Shown here piece by piece: positions 450-34,108 of a DNA stretch of 36,347 bases; position 1 is the first letter of the stretch, and every line of letters starts with the position of its first letter. The translations under genes and the position numbers were made by a program. The DNA lies in IMG/VR virus record IMGVR_UViG_3300011128_000294, positions 1 to 36,347 of that record. One strand, given 5' to 3'. This DNA comes from a virus. Below the pieces are notes generated by a model. That model searched no databases. It was given only the letters and a program-made list of their open reading frames with translations, and had not been told where the DNA came from.

Positions 450-677
450 TTAACTCTCCATTACTAAAGTTGTTATCTTGCCTTCATTATCGAAGTAATA
501 AGCGTATTCATCAGAACAGAACCTATCCTGAACAACTATTGTTGTTTTTGTTCCCGTTTCCTCTAACACTTTCTGGAATAGCTCAAACCTTCTAGGGGAG
601 CATATTATTTTATTCCTTATTTTTGGTAACTCCATCGGCTTCATGCTTGGGAGCCTTATCTTGTCTATAAAGTTCAT
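450..677 (-). CDS. Hypothetical protein
   Basis: 75 aa, not recognised. It is basic at the N-terminus and has a beta-prone middle (KTTIVVQD) and an acidic, aromatic stretch (SDEYAYYFDNEG). Its ATG overlaps the TGA of the upstream GNAT gene as ATGA and is preceded by AAGGA, so translation is probably coupled. It is a late-unit gene between the TerS cluster and TerL. Confidence 0.7.
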   Translation of the reverse strand: MNFIDKIRLPSMKPMELPKIRNKIICSPRRFELFQKVLEETGTKTTIVVQDRFCSDEYAYYFDNEGKITTLVMES

Positions 678-1120
678 ATTTCCTTAAAGAATAAATACGG
701 GTTAAAGTTAACCTCTTCATAATTTTTTAAAAGCTTGTCTGCTATCCATTGTGCCTTTTGATTTTTGTGAGTGTAAACAGCTTTTTTGCTGGTTTTCGCC
801 TCTTCTATTAAATCTGTTGCTACTCTGTTCTTTTGAAGTGGAGACTTGATGTAAATATAATGAAAAACGTCAAGATCTGCGCTTTCTAAATTGTTATAAA
901 CCAAGTACCCGAATATATGATTTTCATCTTCAGGATCGCAAGCCACTAAAACATTAACCTTTGAGAGAAGTCTGTTGATAATTCTATTATGTTCCGCTGA
1001 ATAGATCCTGTGCTTCATTTCTTTAGGGAAGTTGTTGTTAGATCTATATGAGTTCATCCAAGTGCTAGTGATATATGAAACATCACCAGTTTTCAGAGTT
1101 CTAGTTTTCCATTTTTTCAT
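674..1120 (-). CDS. GNAT-type acetyltransferase-like protein
   Basis: 148 aa from the ATG at 1120; an open frame extends further upstream but would run deep into the HTH gene. GNAT features seen: a core strand ending in GYLVY (about 71-75), then FHYIYIKSPLQ (86-96), which fits beta-4 plus motif A. The acetyl-CoA loop reads QKNRVA (96-101), with Arg where the family consensus Q/R-x-x-G-x-G/A has Gly, so activity is uncertain. Small GNAT proteins of this kind occur near terminase genes in other phages (established pattern). The substrate is unknown. It overlaps the HTH gene by 20 bases. Confidence 0.7.
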   Translation of the reverse strand: MKKWKTRTLKTGDVSYITSTWMNSYRSNNNFPKEMKHRIYSAEHNRIINRLLSKVNVLVACDPEDENHIFGYLVYNNLESADLDVFHYIYIKSPLQKNRVATDLIEEAKTSKKAVYTHKNQKAQWIADKLLKNYEEVNFNPYLFFKEI

Positions 1121-1418
1121 TTTCACCGTACTTTGCTTTATAGATCTCATTACATAATTGATTAATATCAACTTTCTTTTCGGTAGGTTCTTTTTCTGCT
1201 TTAGGCTTCTTGGGTTTCTGAGACTTGAAAAAGTAAGTATCACTTAATTCGTCATGCTCTATTAATCCATTAGCTTTCATATCATCTAATTTATTGAACA
1301 TTGTTTTATATGCAATACCTAAAGCACTAGCAGCCTTAGTTTTATTCTGATAATGATTTAAAACATGAATGATATAACAATTTGAAAGTTCTTTAATTGT
1401 TGGGAAGTCTCTAGTCAC
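1101..1418 (-). CDS. Fis-type helix-turn-helix DNA-binding protein
   Basis: 105 aa. Residues about 9-48 match the Fis/NtrC C-terminal helix-turn-helix (HTH_8): a helix with IIHVLNHY, then NKTKAASALGIAYKTMFNKL, whose alanine-rich turn and recognition helix are typical. The tail (70-90) is Lys/Pro-rich and probably flexible. The start is GTG at 1418, with GGGGA six bases upstream, overlapping the preceding stop by eight bases. Being two genes below TerS it could be a second DNA-recognition subunit for packaging, or a late regulator. It is one candidate for binding the ATTAGAT palindromes, but nothing here links them directly. Confidence 0.75.
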   Translation of the reverse strand: MTRDFPTIKELSNCYIIHVLNHYQNKTKAASALGIAYKTMFNKLDDMKANGLIEHDELSDTYFFKSQKPKKPKAEKEPTEKKVDINQLCNEIYKAKYGENEKMEN

Positions 1419-6841: not shown

Positions 6842-6874
6842 AGCCCTATTTGGCCTTTGATTTGCCATAGGGCT
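6842..6874 (+). repeat. Long hairpin in the leader before the 27-codon frame
   Basis: AGCCCTAT (6842-6849) pairs with ATAGGGCT (6867-6874), and inner GGC pairs with GCC after a two-base bulge, giving about 11 pairs around a loop of about ten bases. It has no T-tract on the plus strand and only a broken one on the minus strand, so it is a poor terminator. Its right arm contains AGGG placed as a Shine-Dalgarno for the ATG at 6878. Confidence 0.55.
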
Positions 6875-6877
6875 TAT

Positions 6878-6961
6878 ATGTGGTTTGATTTGAGAGAGCC
6901 TAAAGGCGAAAGATTTAAAGATTTTAACAAGAAGTCATTTTTTGTCCAATATCAAAATTAG
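6878..6961 (+). CDS. Possible 27-aa leader peptide
   Basis: ATG at 6878 to TAG at 6959-6961; 27 codons, rich in charged and Phe residues (MWFDLREPKGERFKDFNKK at the start). Part of it is the DNA element TTTAAAGATTTTARCAA, also present by the late promoter, so the apparent coding may be accidental. AGGG in the upstream hairpin is a plausible but hidden Shine-Dalgarno. The stop lies inside an operator site. Confidence 0.3.
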   Translation: MWFDLREPKGERFKDFNKKSFFVQYQN

Positions 6962-6985
6962 ATAGTTGCCATCTAATTATTATAT
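6949..6985. promoter_or_regulatory. Paired 15-bp operators upstream of Gp157/recT
   Basis: Site 1 (6949-6963) ATATCAAAATTAGAT and site 2 (6971-6985) ATCTAATTATTATAT, which has one mismatch to the full palindrome. The centres are 22 bp apart, about two turns. They end five bases above the -35 of the second plus-strand promoter candidate. Confidence 0.6.
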
Positions 6986-6990
6986 TTCAC

Positions 6991-7019
6991 TTAGTTATCT
7001 TTATTAATTAATTTATAGA
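6991..7019 (+). promoter_or_regulatory. Plus-strand promoter candidate P2 for Gp157/recT
   Basis: TTAGTT, a 17-base spacer, TATAGA. It is weak on its own and lies directly below the operator pair, the arrangement expected for an activated promoter. Confidence 0.35.
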
Positions 7020-7058
7020 AAGAGAAAAACTTAAAAAAAACCATCGGAGGTTAACAAA

Positions 7059-7592
7059 ATGAGCAGTCAAACCAACAAACTATCACTTTACAATATCGGA
7101 GAGGAGGTTCACGCATTAGATCGTTTATCTGAAGAGCTTGGAGGGGAGATAACTCCAGAACTTGAACAACTTCAAGAAGAATGTACTGCCCTTATTAAAG
7201 ACAAGGTGGATTCTTATGTCGCTTTCACTGAAATGCTAAACGATGATATTGCACTAGCAAAGGATCGAATCAAAAAGTTAAATGCCTTTATAAAGACAAG
7301 AGAAAACAAAATCGAAAACATGAAGCAGTTTGCTTTCATGGCGCTTGATAAGTGTGGACAGAAAGAGTTTAAAGGATCTCTTGCTTCTATTAAGGAAAGA
7401 AAGGCTGCTGACGTTCTTGATCTAGTTGATGCGGATCAAGTCCCTGTAGAGTTTTTAAAGCATATTCCTGCAAGTACAACAGTAGACAAGGCTGCCCTTA
7501 AAAAAGCCATTAAAAACGGCGAATACAGCGGAGAGGCTGCACGTTTAGTCGCAGGTAAAAGAAGTATTAACTTTTCATTCAAATCTTGTTAG
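7059..7592 (+). CDS. Gp157-family phage protein
   Basis: 177 aa. It matches the Siphovirus Gp157 pattern: an N-terminal helix (LSLYNIGEEVHALDRLSEEL), a long coiled coil with repeated KDR/KTR segments (60-110), then a domain with GSLASIKERKAADVLDL and VPVEFLKHIPASTTVDKAALKKAIKNG. Family members are linked to phage resistance or recombination and often sit directly before recT or erf; their exact action is unclear. GGAGG eight bases before the ATG is the strongest Shine-Dalgarno in the window. It overlaps the longer recT frame but not the recT start chosen here. Confidence 0.85.
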   Translation: MSSQTNKLSLYNIGEEVHALDRLSEELGGEITPELEQLQEECTALIKDKVDSYVAFTEMLNDDIALAKDRIKKLNAFIKTRENKIENMKQFAFMALDKCGQKEFKGSLASIKERKAADVLDLVDADQVPVEFLKHIPASTTVDKAALKKAIKNGEYSGEAARLVAGKRSINFSFKSC

Positions 7593-7600
7593 GGGGAAAT

Positions 7601-8731
7601 ATGAACCAGATCGCAAAATTACCATTAGTTAAGCAATTAAATGAGTTAGGGCCGCAATTCTCGGAAATGGCCCGATCTCATAATCTAGTAAACTTTAAAA
7701 CAGAAATAGCCTATGCTTGCGGGATTCTTGAATCAAATAGCTATCTACTAAAGATAGCCCAAAATAATCCTTCTTCTATCAGAAATGCTGTTTTGAATAT
7801 CGCAGGAACGGGAATAACTTTAAATCCTTTACATCAACACGCATACCTTGTCCCAAGAAAGGGAGAGGTTTGTCTGGATATTTCCTATAAGGGACTTATG
7901 CACCTAGCTCAAGATACTGGGTCAATCGTGTGGGTTCACGTTGATATTGTTATGGAGAAAGATACTTTTGAACTTGGACTAGCAGGAGAGAGACCCCTTC
8001 ATAAACTAAACCCTTTCCAAAAAGATAGAGGAAAGCAAGAAGGGGCTTACTGTGTAGCAAAGTTACATGATGGATCTTACATGACTGTTACTATGGGGAT
8101 GGAGGACATTTTCGAGATAAGAGATCAGTCGGAGGCATATAAAGCCTACAAGTCCGGAAAGGTTAGCCAGTGCCCTTGGGTTAATTTTGAGAGTGAAATG
8201 ATTAAAAAAACAGTAATCAAGAGAGCTTATAAATTTTGGCCTAAGGCTGACGTTAGATTTAAAAAAGCGATAGAGGTGGTAAACGAACATGAAGGAATTG
8301 ATTTTCAAAACAATGAAGACGTTATCGAGTATAAGCCTATCGACTACGAGAGAAGATATGAGCAAATCGACAAGATCAAAAGTCTTCTTAGTGAATTATG
8401 TGAAGGGTTTACAAATGAGCAAAAAATCGCCCTTCTCAAAGAAACAACAGGGTTCGTTAACTTTTCTGACGTGGAAATTCAAGACAATAAAAGCTTGGAT
8501 AAAATCGAGCTAAATTTATTAACGAAAAAGACTGACAAGGAAGCAGGGGATAACAACCCCCTTCCTGTAGTCAAAAAAGAAGATGCTATCGAGGCAGAAG
8601 TTTTAGATCCGAAAGTTGAAGAAACTAAGTTGGCAAAAATAGCAAGAGAACTAAAGGAGCAAACTGCCGCGGCAGTAATAGACACAAAACCTAAAAACGC
8701 AAAAAGCGCAACTTTTACAATTAATCAATAA
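7601..8731 (+). CDS. recT: RecT-family single-strand annealing protein
   Basis: 376 aa from the ATG at 7601 (GGGGGA just upstream; the frame opens earlier at a TTG). It anneals complementary single strands in phage recombination. Typical RecT blocks are NAVLNIAGTGITLNPLHQHAYLVPR (about 62-86, given here in shortened sense), CLDISYKGLMHLA, and in the C-terminal half SEMIKKTVIKRAYKFWP. The tail after about 230 is charged and low-complexity, as in many RecT proteins. The usual RecE-type partner is not adjacent; the DEDD exonuclease at 3522-4307 is the only nuclease that could supply 3'-5' trimming, which is inference. There is no SSB gene nearby. Confidence 0.9.
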   Translation: MNQIAKLPLVKQLNELGPQFSEMARSHNLVNFKTEIAYACGILESNSYLLKIAQNNPSSIRNAVLNIAGTGITLNPLHQHAYLVPRKGEVCLDISYKGLMHLAQDTGSIVWVHVDIVMEKDTFELGLAGERPLHKLNPFQKDRGKQEGAYCVAKLHDGSYMTVTMGMEDIFEIRDQSEAYKAYKSGKVSQCPWVNFESEMIKKTVIKRAYKFWPKADVRFKKAIEVVNEHEGIDFQNNEDVIEYKPIDYERRYEQIDKIKSLLSELCEGFTNEQKIALLKETTGFVNFSDVEIQDNKSLDKIELNLLTKKTDKEAGDNNPLPVVKKEDAIEAEVLDPKVEETKLAKIARELKEQTAAAVIDTKPKNAKSATFTINQ

Positions 8732-8740
8732 GGAGAAATT

Positions 8741-8935
8741 ATGACACCATTAGAATTTTTTAAAAACAGGTATAGAGAAATTGAGATCCAGATCGAAAAA
8801 GCTGAGAGCGATAAAAAAGCTCTAAAGTCTTTTCACAAAAGAAAGCATAAGCAATATTTTATTGATAGATCTAAAGAACAACAAACAACCGCTAAGGAAT
8901 GGATCTTTAGCCTTGGGGGATCTCTTGCAAACTGA
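8741..8935 (+). CDS. Small helical protein
   Basis: 64 aa, not recognised. It is Lys/Glu-rich and helical (YREIEIQIEKAESDKKALKS), with an AKEWIF segment near the end. AAGGAG precedes the ATG. It is the last clear gene of the recT transcript. Confidence 0.7.
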   Translation: MTPLEFFKNRYREIEIQIEKAESDKKALKSFHKRKHKQYFIDRSKEQQTTAKEWIFSLGGSLAN

Positions 8936-28957: not shown

Positions 28958-30178
28958 TTAGCTAAGTGAAATAACAGCGTTCCAACCCGGAGCATTACAA
29001 CCAAGTTGACGGTATCCACCAACTCTTAGCTCTACTGCATCCGCATCATTTTCACGAAGTAACTTGTTTCCATCAAGGTCAAGGATTCTAATTGCCTTTT
29101 TAAGAGAGTAACACTTCCAAGTTTTCATTGTAAGCATATAGGCTCTATCTGAAGGACAAAAAGGATCTGCAATAACATTGATAGTCCCTTTGTTTGATTT
29201 AATTTGAATACCTTCAAAACCAATATCTGCACGACCAAAAGCCTGAGATACCATGTATTGAACTTTAGACCCTAAAGCTTTTTCTAGGTTTTCAAATTGA
29301 GAGTAATTGATAAAACAAACGTCTGCACGTCCACCTTCTCTATTAACTCTTGAAGCTCCTTTGATTAGCGCCTCTTCGATTGGTAAAGCCGTCCCGTCTA
29401 CACGAATACCACTTAAACGAACCGGATCGACTGAACGATCAACACCAAAAAAGTTGTCCCCAGGAGCCGGAGCAGTAGTAGGAAGCCAAGCTTCTAGCCC
29501 TGCTTCAGAAAGGTTTCTGTCACCGTCAACAAAGATATAATCTAGGGCAGCGGTAGCAGCCGGAAGAGTACCTGTGGCAACAGCGAATGTTCCAAGATCT
29601 CTATCTACAGAAACAACAGTACAAGTCCCGACTCTTTCAATACCGGCAGACTTTGCGGCCGCAGTAGTAAGAGTTTGACCGATCTCAAAATAAACAATGT
29701 TATCAGGATCAGAAAGAGTTACTGTATCAAAACCAACCGGAGCACCAACAGCGATAGAAGCAATTTGCCCAATAGTTCCTGATTGATCCGAAAATAAACC
29801 AGAAGCGAAAGAGTTAGTCGCAGACTGAATAGCGCCATCAATTTCAACCGTTAGAGCTTTTAGGAAAGCGCCTTGGTTAGTTTCTGAAGCTTCGGCAGTC
29901 TCATTGTCGATAGTAGCTAGTGAATAATCTCTAGCACGAACAAGAGTAAAGGCCTTTAGCTCTGAACTTGTTTTATTTGATTTTGCATTTGAAAAAGTTC
30001 TCGATCTTCCTTGTGGGTTTCCATGGATGATTGGAAGCTTCATATCTTCCCCATAGAAATTTTCGTCTTTTGAAAGCATTGCTAAAAACGGGTGATCTTT
30101 GTACACCATGTTTTCAACCATAGTGTTTGAATAATACTGTTTTAATGCCGGAGCATATTTAGTCAAATTTAGCATCAT
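28958..30178 (-). CDS. Major capsid protein (HK97 fold)
   Basis: 406 aa. Main shell protein. It begins LTKYAPALKQYYSNTMVENM, then HPFLAMLSKDENFYGEDMKLP, the N-arm of one podovirus capsid family. A glutamate-containing loop, a helix with ALTVEIDGAIQSATN, and an inserted beta domain (about 150-225: FEIGQTLTTAAAKSAG, VVSVDRDLGTFAVATG) follow. At the end CFINYSQFENLEKALGSKV and NVIADPFCPSDRAYMLTMKTW are the P- and A-domain strands. Two ATGs, 30178 and 30175, are both usable; the second has the better distance from GAGG. Confidence 0.9.
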   Translation of the reverse strand: MMLNLTKYAPALKQYYSNTMVENMVYKDHPFLAMLSKDENFYGEDMKLPIIHGNPQGRSRTFSNAKSNKTSSELKAFTLVRARDYSLATIDNETAEASETNQGAFLKALTVEIDGAIQSATNSFASGLFSDQSGTIGQIASIAVGAPVGFDTVTLSDPDNIVYFEIGQTLTTAAAKSAGIERVGTCTVVSVDRDLGTFAVATGTLPAATAALDYIFVDGDRNLSEAGLEAWLPTTAPAPGDNFFGVDRSVDPVRLSGIRVDGTALPIEEALIKGASRVNREGGRADVCFINYSQFENLEKALGSKVQYMVSQAFGRADIGFEGIQIKSNKGTINVIADPFCPSDRAYMLTMKTWKCYSLKKAIRILDLDGNKLLRENDADAVELRVGGYRQLGCNAPGWNAVISLS

Positions 30179-30199: not shown

Positions 30200-31156
30200 C
30201 TAGCCTTTAGGGATAGCACTTAAAGCCCTATTAAACCTCTCTTCCTCAGTCATTTTCGTTTCGTCGATATGCTGATTCTGAGTAGTTGTTTGGGTCATTT
30301 GGTTTGTTAGCGTTTGCGGCTGATTTGACTGATTACCACTATTTAACTGATTTTCTTCTACGCTTTTCGGGATACTATTTTCTTTGATCTTTTGAATCGC
30401 GGAAAATAAATATTCCCTAGTGTGCTCAGATTGTAACACTTTATCTATTTCCGATGCAAGATGCTTTTCGGCCATAGCCGAAGCTTGCTCAGAATTTAGC
30501 ATATTTTTATCTGCATAATCGTAGCCATAATCCTTTGCATCCTTTTGATATTGTTGCTCTATTATATTAAAAACCAGTTCGGATTGATCCATTCCACTAG
30601 ATAATGGAAATTCTGAAGATTTTTCAGTTAGAAAGTCTTTGATAGAGCTTTTAAACTCATTTGTTTGAGTTTCTAATTGCTGCTGCTCTTTTTCTTTGGC
30701 CGTATGGCCATTAAATTCATCCATTAATTCTTTTTTAAGATCTTCTTTATATTTAACAGGATCAAAACCTTCGGAGCCCGGAAGATTATCGTTTTTATCC
30801 GATTCGTCACCACCACCCATAAATTCTTTAACAACATCATCAATCCCATTTAATCTTTCAGATCTCTGATTGTTAAATTCCTCTCTCTCTTTTCTTAGTT
30901 TTTCTTTTTCAAGATAAACATTTCTTTCTTGAGCAGTTAATTGCTCCCACTGTTGGGAAGTTGGAGCCGGTTTTTCATCTTCTTCTTTTTCTTCAACAAT
31001 TTGGTCCTGCTCATTACTTGGAGCCCCTTGGTCTTCATTTCCACCTTGATTGAAATGCTCATTTGCAATCTGGTCAATCGTTGGTAAAGCGCTAGAAGAG
31101 GTTCCCTGTTGATTCACTGAGGGGTTTACTGTCTGGTTGATCGTTTCTGTACTCAT
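30200..31156 (-). CDS. Scaffolding protein
   Basis: 318 aa, highly charged and Gln/Glu/Ser-rich with little hydrophobic core, as in podovirus scaffolds. A helix region at 60-105 (LTAQERNVYLEKEKLRKERE), an acidic middle, a helical part (140-260) and MTEEERFNRALSAIPKG at the end, which is a common scaffold C-terminus that binds capsid subunits. It directly precedes the capsid gene and starts 64 bases inside the kinase-like gene. Confidence 0.8.
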   Translation of the reverse strand: MSTETINQTVNPSVNQQGTSSSALPTIDQIANEHFNQGGNEDQGAPSNEQDQIVEEKEEDEKPAPTSQQWEQLTAQERNVYLEKEKLRKEREEFNNQRSERLNGIDDVVKEFMGGGDESDKNDNLPGSEGFDPVKYKEDLKKELMDEFNGHTAKEKEQQQLETQTNEFKSSIKDFLTEKSSEFPLSSGMDQSELVFNIIEQQYQKDAKDYGYDYADKNMLNSEQASAMAEKHLASEIDKVLQSEHTREYLFSAIQKIKENSIPKSVEENQLNSGNQSNQPQTLTNQMTQTTTQNQHIDETKMTEEERFNRALSAIPKG

Positions 31157-32252
31157 TGTTTTCTTCTCTCATGTTTTGGAGCTTCATCGCTCTATTAAAA
31201 TTACTTCTCTTAACTAATTCGTTCTTTGGGAGATCACCGCCCCCAATTACATCAGACCCAGAAGGATCTATAAAATCTGTCATAACTTCATTTCTCGCAT
31301 TTGCATCTTTTGAAGTTAACAGCGAAGCCCCAAGAACTATAGGGCCAACAAAAGGTAAAACAGAAGGGAGTTTTCTTCTGATTGTTCCTGCTGTCTTCTT
31401 TGTTATATTTTTCGGAATAGCCTTTAAGTGTCTACTTAGTAACTCTTTCCTTATTTCTTTTTTAGATCTATTTGAGGGAGAAGGATCTTTAAATTGTCCT
31501 GCATCTAAAATTTTAGAATTACCAGACTCATGATCGAAACCTATATTTGCATCTCTTATATCTATAGGGTCGTAAATAGTTTCCGAATTAACCTTTCCTG
31601 TTAGTATTTCCTGATCTCTAACCGTATTAGGTAATTGATCCAAATGATCTTGAATCAGGTTCTCTTTCTTTGAAGTTTTAACCCTCATTATCTCGGGAGA
31701 TATTCCCTTGTCCGCTAAATCGCTTTCTATAAAGAATCTATTATTTAAAAACTCCGAGTCAGGACTATAAGGGCTATTTCTTGGCCATTTTATAAACTTA
31801 TCATCCACCTTTACGCCTTCAGCGAACGCGCCTTTTCCTTTTGTTATAATTGCCTCAATCTTAGACGACAAATCTTTCTCTTTTATTGATAACTGTTCGA
31901 GTGTTGAAAACATTTTAGCCCTTTCTTTTTTCCCATCCCTGAAGGACTGAGAACTATCTAGGTATTTTCTAACCTCTAATTTTTTAGAGTTAATATTTTT
32001 CCATTCCTCTTGAACTTTTCCGAGATTTTCCGCTCTGGTCTTAAAAAGATTCTTAGCCTCTCTCGTTTTCTTTACAGCGTCGATTCTTTTCAGGTTAATG
32101 TCTGGCTTAAATTTCTCAATCTCAGAAGCAGATCTTTTTTTTAAAACTTTCCTTATTTCCCTATCTGTTAAGTGATTAAATTCTACGGGCTTCTTTTTGC
32201 CTTCGATAAAATCTTTAACCGATTGCAAAGCCTTCGGAGTCTTCTTTTCCAT
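31092..32252 (-). CDS. Protein with a compact protein-kinase-like core
   Basis: 386 aa. The N-terminal 130 residues are basic and helical. From 137 to 252 the order of kinase motifs can be followed: a glycine loop (G139-K-G141-AFAE-G146-V), a lysine strand (KFIK155W), an alpha-C-like helix (168-180 with E176), GISPEIMRV, a hinge-like strand (ENLIQDHL), a catalytic-loop-like D231-IRDA-N236-IGFD, and KILD250-AG in place of DFG. This is a small kinase-like fold with the Lys, Asp, Asn and Asp retained. The C-terminal lobe beyond is not recognisable. A hydrophobic stretch follows (296-312). Lying between portal and scaffold, it may be a virion passenger delivered to the host. The domain is my inference from motif order; no family search was possible. 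Confidence 0.6.
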   Translation of the reverse strand: MEKKTPKALQSVKDFIEGKKKPVEFNHLTDREIRKVLKKRSASEIEKFKPDINLKRIDAVKKTREAKNLFKTRAENLGKVQEEWKNINSKKLEVRKYLDSSQSFRDGKKERAKMFSTLEQLSIKEKDLSSKIEAIITKGKGAFAEGVKVDDKFIKWPRNSPYSPDSEFLNNRFFIESDLADKGISPEIMRVKTSKKENLIQDHLDQLPNTVRDQEILTGKVNSETIYDPIDIRDANIGFDHESGNSKILDAGQFKDPSPSNRSKKEIRKELLSRHLKAIPKNITKKTAGTIRRKLPSVLPFVGPIVLGASLLTSKDANARNEVMTDFIDPSGSDVIGGGDLPKNELVKRSNFNRAMKLQNMREENNEYRNDQPDSKPLSESTGNLF

Positions 32253-34108
32253 TATAAGCTCTCAGGTAAAGCACCCTCAGTCGGTATTGGTGCAACTTCC
32301 GATAATTGATCTAAGGCTTCCTCCTCAGGAACAACACCCTCTTCTAGTGGGTCAATGGTGGGCTCTTCTACTGGTGGGTTAATAATTAAAATAGCATCAT
32401 CAATCCATCTAATAAAAAGCTCCAGTTTTTCCTCTGGAAGATTCATTCTCTTGTATCTTAAATAAGCCGACTGCATAACAGGAAGGGCATACTCAAGATC
32501 TTGGATCTCTTCAGGGGCGCTATATTTCCCTTCGTCGACAATATCCTCAATTGTTGCATTTATATCATTAACAATGGCAGTCTCAAGTTGTGTAACAGCC
32601 TTAAGGTCTGGATAGTCAAGAAGTGAGTAAGCTTGCCTCTTGTTTAAAAAGTTAATACTCATTAGATCTTGAATATCCGCAAGCTTCCCTGAAGGAGTGT
32701 CTTGAAGTAGGTTAGTTGGATAAACTTTCATAATGTATGAATCATCATCCATGTGAACGTCTTCCCATTTAATTAGCCTTAATCCGTTTTGACCTAATGC
32801 TTTTACTGCCATTTTAGGATTGTCTTTAGCTTGCTGTTTGCTCATTTTGATAACTTTCTTGGAACACCTCATGTAAAAATCTTCCCATCTTTGGGAGACA
32901 ACAGAGAAGCGCTCTGACTCTATGTCGTGAAAAGTTCTTAAAGCTTTTCCAGAGTCAAGGCCGGGCTCTTTCTTGGAAGTGGCAGACATTTGAGAAAGAC
33001 CGATAATTTCATAAGCTCTTGCATACAGTTTATCTAATTGAAGAAATAGCTCTGGCGGAACATTCATTAATTGTCTTGATTCTGGCATAGTCCCAGAGAA
33101 GTAAATTAGGCTTCCTACTTCGTTATTTAGTTGAGTTTCCACGACTTCAGATCCATGCTCTAAGAAAATCTTAGGAACGCCGCCTAAGTGCAAAGATAAT
33201 TGGATCGTTTTAAGAATTTTGTTCATTTCTATTTGGATTCCTGTCAATTGCTCAGAAATACCTTGTGCCCAATACCCAAGAAGTCGTGGAGCCCAACCAA
33301 ATTTCTCAAAAGGGAAATAATCAACGTCATATTCTTCGTCTAACATCGTTCCATGCTGTACCGATATACAATGCCTACCCTTTTCGAGAATCGTTTCCTT
33401 GCCGTTCTTATCCATTCCCATGATAGGAAGTCTCCAAGACTCGACAACTTTAATAATATCTGGTGTAAATTGATCGTATAAAAAAGAACCTTCGGCATCT
33501 GTAGAACTGCTGTGAATTGCAATCTTGTGTTTTGGGAACATGGAGGACACCACGTCTTTTGTGAGGAATTTTACTCTGTGCATCTGCCGAGGTTCTCCAT
33601 ATATAGCTTCGTCTTCATCGACGACTATTTCTTCTGGAAAAACTCTTTCACAATCTATCTGATTCTTATTATTGATAAAGAAGTGCAAGATCCCGTCGCC
33701 AAAAACTCCGGCATCTCTAAAAATATCAATTCCTTTATTGTAAATATCCATTTGATAAAAGGAGCCAGAGATATACTTTTCTAAATTTCTGGCCTTTGTA
33801 CCCATTTCCCACAATCCATCTTCTGTTAAAAACGTGGGCTTGGGTCTATTTTTGGCAATTCTTGCCGTAGCCGTATCAATGGCAGATTGAACAATATTCA
33901 AGGTTAGTTTATTTAAAGATCTAATCTTTTGAAACTCTCCTGCTCTTAATCCTAAAACCTCTGAGTTTCCATATAGTCTAAAGTTTCTTAAGTTCTCTTC
34001 AGATCTCTGGCTCTGCTTATAATCCCAGTGCTTTAAAGAGTTAAAAACTAACTCATGCACTTTGCCCTTATCAGCTTCCCACCAGAATGATTTTTGCTTT
34101 TCTTTCAT
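32252..34108 (-). CDS. Portal protein
   Basis: 618 aa, within the usual length for podovirus portals. It begins WWEADKGKVHELVFNSLKHWD and NLRNFRLYGNSEVLGL, then TLNIVQSAIDTATARIAKNRPKP, a very common portal block. KGIDIFRDAGVFGDGILHFF and PEEIVVDEDEAIYGEPRQ follow; a helical region with EQLTGIQIEMNKILKTIQ forms the crown side, and an acidic tail ends the protein. It forms the ring for DNA entry and binds the terminase. GGGGAAAAG precedes the ATG. Confidence 0.88.
   Translation of the reverse strand: MKEKQKSFWWEADKGKVHELVFNSLKHWDYKQSQRSEENLRNFRLYGNSEVLGLRAGEFQKIRSLNKLTLNIVQSAIDTATARIAKNRPKPTFLTEDGLWEMGTKARNLEKYISGSFYQMDIYNKGIDIFRDAGVFGDGILHFFINNKNQIDCERVFPEEIVVDEDEAIYGEPRQMHRVKFLTKDVVSSMFPKHKIAIHSSSTDAEGSFLYDQFTPDIIKVVESWRLPIMGMDKNGKETILEKGRHCISVQHGTMLDEEYDVDYFPFEKFGWAPRLLGYWAQGISEQLTGIQIEMNKILKTIQLSLHLGGVPKIFLEHGSEVVETQLNNEVGSLIYFSGTMPESRQLMNVPPELFLQLDKLYARAYEIIGLSQMSATSKKEPGLDSGKALRTFHDIESERFSVVSQRWEDFYMRCSKKVIKMSKQQAKDNPKMAVKALGQNGLRLIKWEDVHMDDDSYIMKVYPTNLLQDTPSGKLADIQDLMSINFLNKRQAYSLLDYPDLKAVTQLETAIVNDINATIEDIVDEGKYSAPEEIQDLEYALPVMQSAYLRYKRMNLPEEKLELFIRWIDDAILIINPPVEEPTIDPLEEGVVPEEEALDQLSEVAPIPTEGALPESL

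Follow-up and report, generated by a model that had tools for sequence, protein, structure and literature searches.

The window, i.e., the whole stretch of DNA that was analysed, is a virus record with a length of 36,347 bases; in it, Pfam and PHROGs identify genes for TerL, a portal protein and an SU10-type capsid protein. The gene for P0001 lies in the head module between the portal gene and a scaffold-like gene on the minus strand, as the original prediction had placed it. The genes of this region are:

28958..30178, minus strand: major capsid protein (MCP) of the SU10 type (PF17236, E 7e-8, and relatives)
30200..31156, minus strand: scaffold-like protein (phmmer E values down to 1e-23 against ORFs at the corresponding position in relatives)
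31092..32252, minus strand: P0001, an ORF of 386 amino acids with the putative kinase-like core (ORF confirmed at these coordinates)
32252..34108, minus strand: portal protein (PHROG 156, E 9e-13; P22_portal match below threshold)

The ATG of P0001 overlaps the stop codon of the portal gene (TAATG), and the two genes are thus translationally coupled. Downstream, the P0001 ORF overlaps the scaffold-like ORF over 65 nt, and its base composition and codon use are in line with those of the neighbouring genes. A GNAT-like acetyltransferase ORF is located at window positions 674-1243. In many relatives a similar ORF immediately precedes TerL, and the contig may therefore have been cut inside a genome that is circularly permuted.

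Relatives were gathered by their capsid protein (n = 90), and 86 of them have both portal and capsid genes resolved on the locus. In the relatives the scaffold-like ORF comes directly after the portal gene; in the closest ones (L012-L014) it begins 3 nt past the portal stop codon. According to phmmer, a P0001-like ORF is present in none of the 86 resolved loci. Homologues of P0001 or its core were not detected by tblastn of phages and plasmids, in viral contigs or in genome contigs, and a search of 50 whole relative virus records and of 379 bacterial genomes of one phylum, which had no positive control, found none for P0001 either. The P0001 gene is an accessory insertion, which was probably acquired by its own lineage. 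Because it is absent from the 86 resolved relatives and the 50 whole records, head assembly in this group does not depend on it. Identity as a head-assembly protease was considered and dropped, as P0001 has no family match and the gene is missing in relatives.

Extra ORFs between the scaffold and capsid genes were found in two other relatives, L053 (5067-5717, 216 amino acids) and L074 (5457-5954, 165 amino acids). They are unlike P0001 (phmmer) and indicate that the head region accepts accessory genes. In L009 and L010 (about 6862-8882) the capsid gene seems to be split into parts of 105 and 287 amino acids by a zinc-finger-like ORF of the HNH type (201 amino acids), which suggests that the major capsid gene is interrupted by an intron or an intein-like element.

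Five regions of P0001 were located, all on the minus strand:

31845..32129, minus strand: N-terminal long helical, coiled-coil-like region, residues 42-136 (single-sequence AlphaFold; weak spectrin-repeat match)
31788..31838, minus strand: G-loop-like GKGAFAEGV and candidate beta-3 lysine K155, residues 139-155 (sequence; ordered-motif test)
31713..31763, minus strand: predicted alpha-C-like helix, residues 164-180, with the candidate glutamate E176, before GISPEI (low-confidence models)
31497..31562, minus strand: catalytic-loop-like D231-IRDA-N236 through K247-ILD250-AG252 (sequence; shuffle test)
31314..31370, minus strand: hydrophobic segment, residues 295-313 (hydropathy; borderline transmembrane)

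The spectrin-repeat match in Pfam is below threshold and of a kind typical for coiled coils. A hydrophobic segment had been proposed at residues 296-312; the most hydrophobic 19-mer of the protein was computed at 295-313 (Kyte-Doolittle 1.73). The kinase-like residues named in the original prediction (G139/G141, K155, D231, N236, K247, D250 and G252) are all in place, and the motifs follow each other in kinase order (G139-K-G141-A-F-A, K155, D231-IRDA-N236, D250-A-G252). P0001 has two of the marks of the protein kinase superfamily (PF00069-like), a glycine-rich loop followed by a strand-3 lysine, and D-x4-N with a metal-binding D-x-G at kinase spacing. The distance between these last two motifs is the same as in real kinases of viral contigs and bacteria. 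Further parts of the sequence would also fit a kinase: GISPEI follows alpha-C, LIQDHLD could form strand 5 and the hinge, and NIGFD and KILDAG could form strands 7 and 8.

Other parts are atypical. The histidine or tyrosine of the HRD motif before the catalytic aspartate is absent in P0001 and P229 is found at that position; in the G-loop, G146 replaces the V57 valine. The hinge-like Q201 is separated from D231 by only about 30 residues, which is too short for normal alpha-D and alpha-E helices. The helical C-lobe that should follow D-x-G is absent, and there is no room for one: past residue 252, a single short helix (264-277) is predicted ahead of the hydrophobic segment.

Such a motif set could also arise by coincidence, in which case P0001 would be a helical orphan with a hydrophobic tail, an accessory protein of the virion or of ejection, and would contain G-x-G, K, D-x4-N and D-x-G by chance. 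We searched with a relaxed pattern (G-x-G-x-x-[AGSTN], then hydrophobic-K, then D-x4-N, then D-x-G) and with a stricter form. The relaxed ordered motif occurs in nine of 100,000 shuffles of P0001 and the stricter form in none of 100,000, figures that are lower than the true chance of the motif set because both patterns were written post hoc with the P0001 sequence already seen, and because the gene had been picked from among many ORFs. The open frames of 100 amino acids or more in all collected loci number 3,373, and 30 of them contain the relaxed motif, namely P0001 and 29 frames that read as protein kinases. The motif is also insensitive, detecting 11 of 21 Ser/Thr kinases and no member of the APH or PolyVal sets. 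It matches none of the 1,254 frames of at least 150 amino acids outside kinase loci and 10 of 25,080 shuffled copies.

The catalytic segment D231-N236/D250-G252 has no match in shuffled windows, but taken alone it is less specific than the ordered set. A DNA pattern with its exact spacing matches 16 stretches in all viral contigs, and only three of these are kinases (L095 and L105, which share one kinase sequence, and L102), the other 13 being non-kinase. The G-loop pattern has 20 matches, none of them in a kinase. In viral contigs the exact DIRDANIG codon pattern has two, of which one lies in a long tail protein that is unrelated and the other in a short stretch that is out of frame. The post hoc pattern, the mostly non-kinase matches to the local catalytic pattern, and the missing canonical histidine and alpha-E would all agree with coincidence. 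Against it stand the full ordered set, which matches no non-kinase among the 3,373 frames and only few shuffles, and the additional fits of GISPEI, LIQDHLD and NIGFD/KILDAG.

Profile searches and modelling bear on the same question. P0001 has no kinase match in Pfam, PHROGs, NCBIfam, PADLOC or PDB sequences, and this lack of family, PDB and homologue support is what a chance resemblance would predict. Local HMMs of bacterial Ser/Thr kinases, APH enzymes and 20 phage Kinase-PolyVal domains score P0001 no higher than shuffles; since these HMMs (PF00069-, APH- and PolyVal-type) also largely miss one another's families, their negative result is weak evidence. AlphaFold was run without an alignment and gave two models, one of residues 132-287 (pLDDT 50) and one of the full-length protein (pLDDT 55). 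Only the N-terminal coiled coil is confident in the latter, where the pLDDT is about 70-92 for residues 61-140 and falls to about 50-60 for residues 42-60. In the low-confidence model of residues 132-287 the alpha-C position is helical and the catalytic loop is flanked by strands on both sides, as in a kinase, and a helix at about 166-181 is found in both models. The full-length model, likewise of low confidence, runs a helix through residues 108-146, across the would-be beta-1 and G-loop, which together with the poor model quality speaks for coincidence. Of the minimal kinase or pseudokinase originally proposed, the specific and ordered motif set stands, whereas a kinase family match and the HRD histidine are lacking. 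Judged from the sequence, coincidence is not the favoured reading of the motif set; we regard it as rather unlikely, and a kinase-like core in P0001 as more probable than not.

A kinase without a C-lobe would not be the first in phages. The Kinase-PolyVal domains (PF18762) are described as kinase domains of polyvalent proteins from phages and conjugative elements that have lost the whole C-lobe and kept the active site; the hallmarks given are a glutamate before strand 2, a glutamine in the final strand of the N-lobe and an insert between the histidine and the catalytic aspartate (Iyer et al., 2017, PMC5512222). P0001 might therefore be a stand-alone form of such a kinase. It is likewise phage-encoded and lacks the C-lobe with active-site residues kept. 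Compared with the hallmarks described there, Q201 (in the strand preceding the hinge) and E145 (immediately ahead of strand 2) are plausibly placed, in a register that only a structure would fix. However, P0001 has no histidine before D231 and no insert before the catalytic aspartate. The 30 residues from Q201 to D231 are shorter than the equivalent stretch in the aligned members, D-A-G is kept where these mostly have I-D-[PTAN], and P0001 is a medium-sized stand-alone protein in a head operon. The HMM of 20 Kinase-PolyVal members picks up the outlier L131 at 27 bits but ranks the P0001 core 187th among shuffles and decoys. L131 is also the one match, below threshold, of PF18762 in 284 genomes, and tblastn with L131 found nothing. 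Because the insert and a profile match are lacking, P0001 was not assigned to Kinase-PolyVal; membership was rejected on sequence and appears very unlikely.

Related domains were seen elsewhere in the viral contigs. The motif HNxLFPxxxYxxxGF, which we take to be a mark of Kinase-PolyVal, matches about two dozen stretches (L132-L160) with Kinase-PolyVal-like reading frames, often within very large polyvalent proteins. In L095 (690-2267; the kinase end is the same in L105) a kinase-like domain (YAIDTHPGNVG...FKLFDVG) is fused to a RadC/JAB domain; Pfam identifies only RadC and misses the kinase part. By motifs alone, this fusion resembles P0001 in that the motifs stop at D-x-G, no C-lobe follows and the HRD histidine is replaced, and it differs in the fused RadC domain.

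The location of the gene was compared with known phage systems. T7 gp0.7 is not a head-operon gene. It is described as a phage protein kinase that acts on host proteins (PMC5512222) and does so early in infection (PMC8008677), whereas P0001 is encoded in the head operon; the two were compared by description only. MuF-toxin proteins are reported to be encoded just downstream of the portal gene (Jamet et al., 2017, PMC5576092). As in that description, the P0001 gene directly follows the portal gene and the protein has an N-terminal non-enzymatic part and an enzymatic-looking part; in contrast, the enzymatic-looking core of P0001 is central instead of C-terminal and no immunity gene was seen. Identity as a MuF protein was rejected, as there is no match to PF04233 or PF06152 in Pfam.

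The closest parallel in position comes from the Gratiaviridae, phages for which a HipA-like kinase between portal and MCP is reported (Benler et al., 2021, PMC8008677); the same source describes only two phage protein kinases as characterised. The placement of P0001, considered unfamiliar at first, thus has a precedent. In both cases an accessory kinase or kinase-like gene occupies the same place of the late head operon, but P0001 lacks the C-lobe and the adjacent ATPase and glycosyltransferase of the reported Gratiaviridae arrangement. This parallel raises the alternative that P0001 is a late-expressed kinase which stays unpackaged and acts inside the producing cell, or an abortive-infection or superinfection factor there (compare 933W Stk and what has been suggested for the HipA-like kinase of Gratiaviridae). 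The late-operon site between portal and MCP reported in PMC8008677 and the accessory distribution of P0001 agree with this. On the other hand, Pfam and NCBIfam profile searches give no match of P0001 to the HipA family, nor is there a Pkinase match, no linked ATPase or glycosyltransferase adjoins the gene, and attachment to the virion with later ejection would be just as compatible with the coiled coil and hydrophobic tail. We consider such an intracellular role unlikely.

The reading that we prefer, to which we give about an even chance, is that P0001 is an accessory late-gene effector working through a minimal or degenerate kinase core. The gene, inserted between portal and scaffold, would be expressed with the late head operon. 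In the protein, a helical coiled coil would form the N-terminus, followed by a protein-kinase-like core, minimal or degenerate, and by the hydrophobic segment towards the C-terminus; the core would comprise the N-lobe, the catalytic loop and the D-x-G strand and end there, with no C-lobe. In the role most probable for it, that of a phage effector, P0001 would bind ATP and phosphorylate a host target, or would bind such a target as a pseudokinase; it may ride in the head and be ejected, as is thought for polyvalent and MuF effectors. What the analysis shows is the ORF with its motifs, its accessory status and its place in the operon, whereas the kinase fold, phosphotransfer, packaging, ejection and membrane passage are inferred for P0001. 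The most far-reaching version, a free-standing family of C-lobe-less phage kinases that is carried in the capsid, ejected through the membrane by means of its own hydrophobic segment and phosphorylates host proteins at the start of infection, appears doubtful to us.

For P0001, the stripped-down kinase form and the placement both have precedents, which are given by the parts compared of PMC5512222 and PMC8008677. For the two together, in an orphan flanked by a coiled coil and a hydrophobic segment, no precedent was found in the portions of the literature compared. Should P0001 be a pseudokinase or its resemblance a coincidence, it would be a warning against reading proteins by motifs only. If the kinase interpretation is true, P0001 would be a test case for the minimum size of a functional kinase and for the question whether kinases are delivered by phages along with their DNA.
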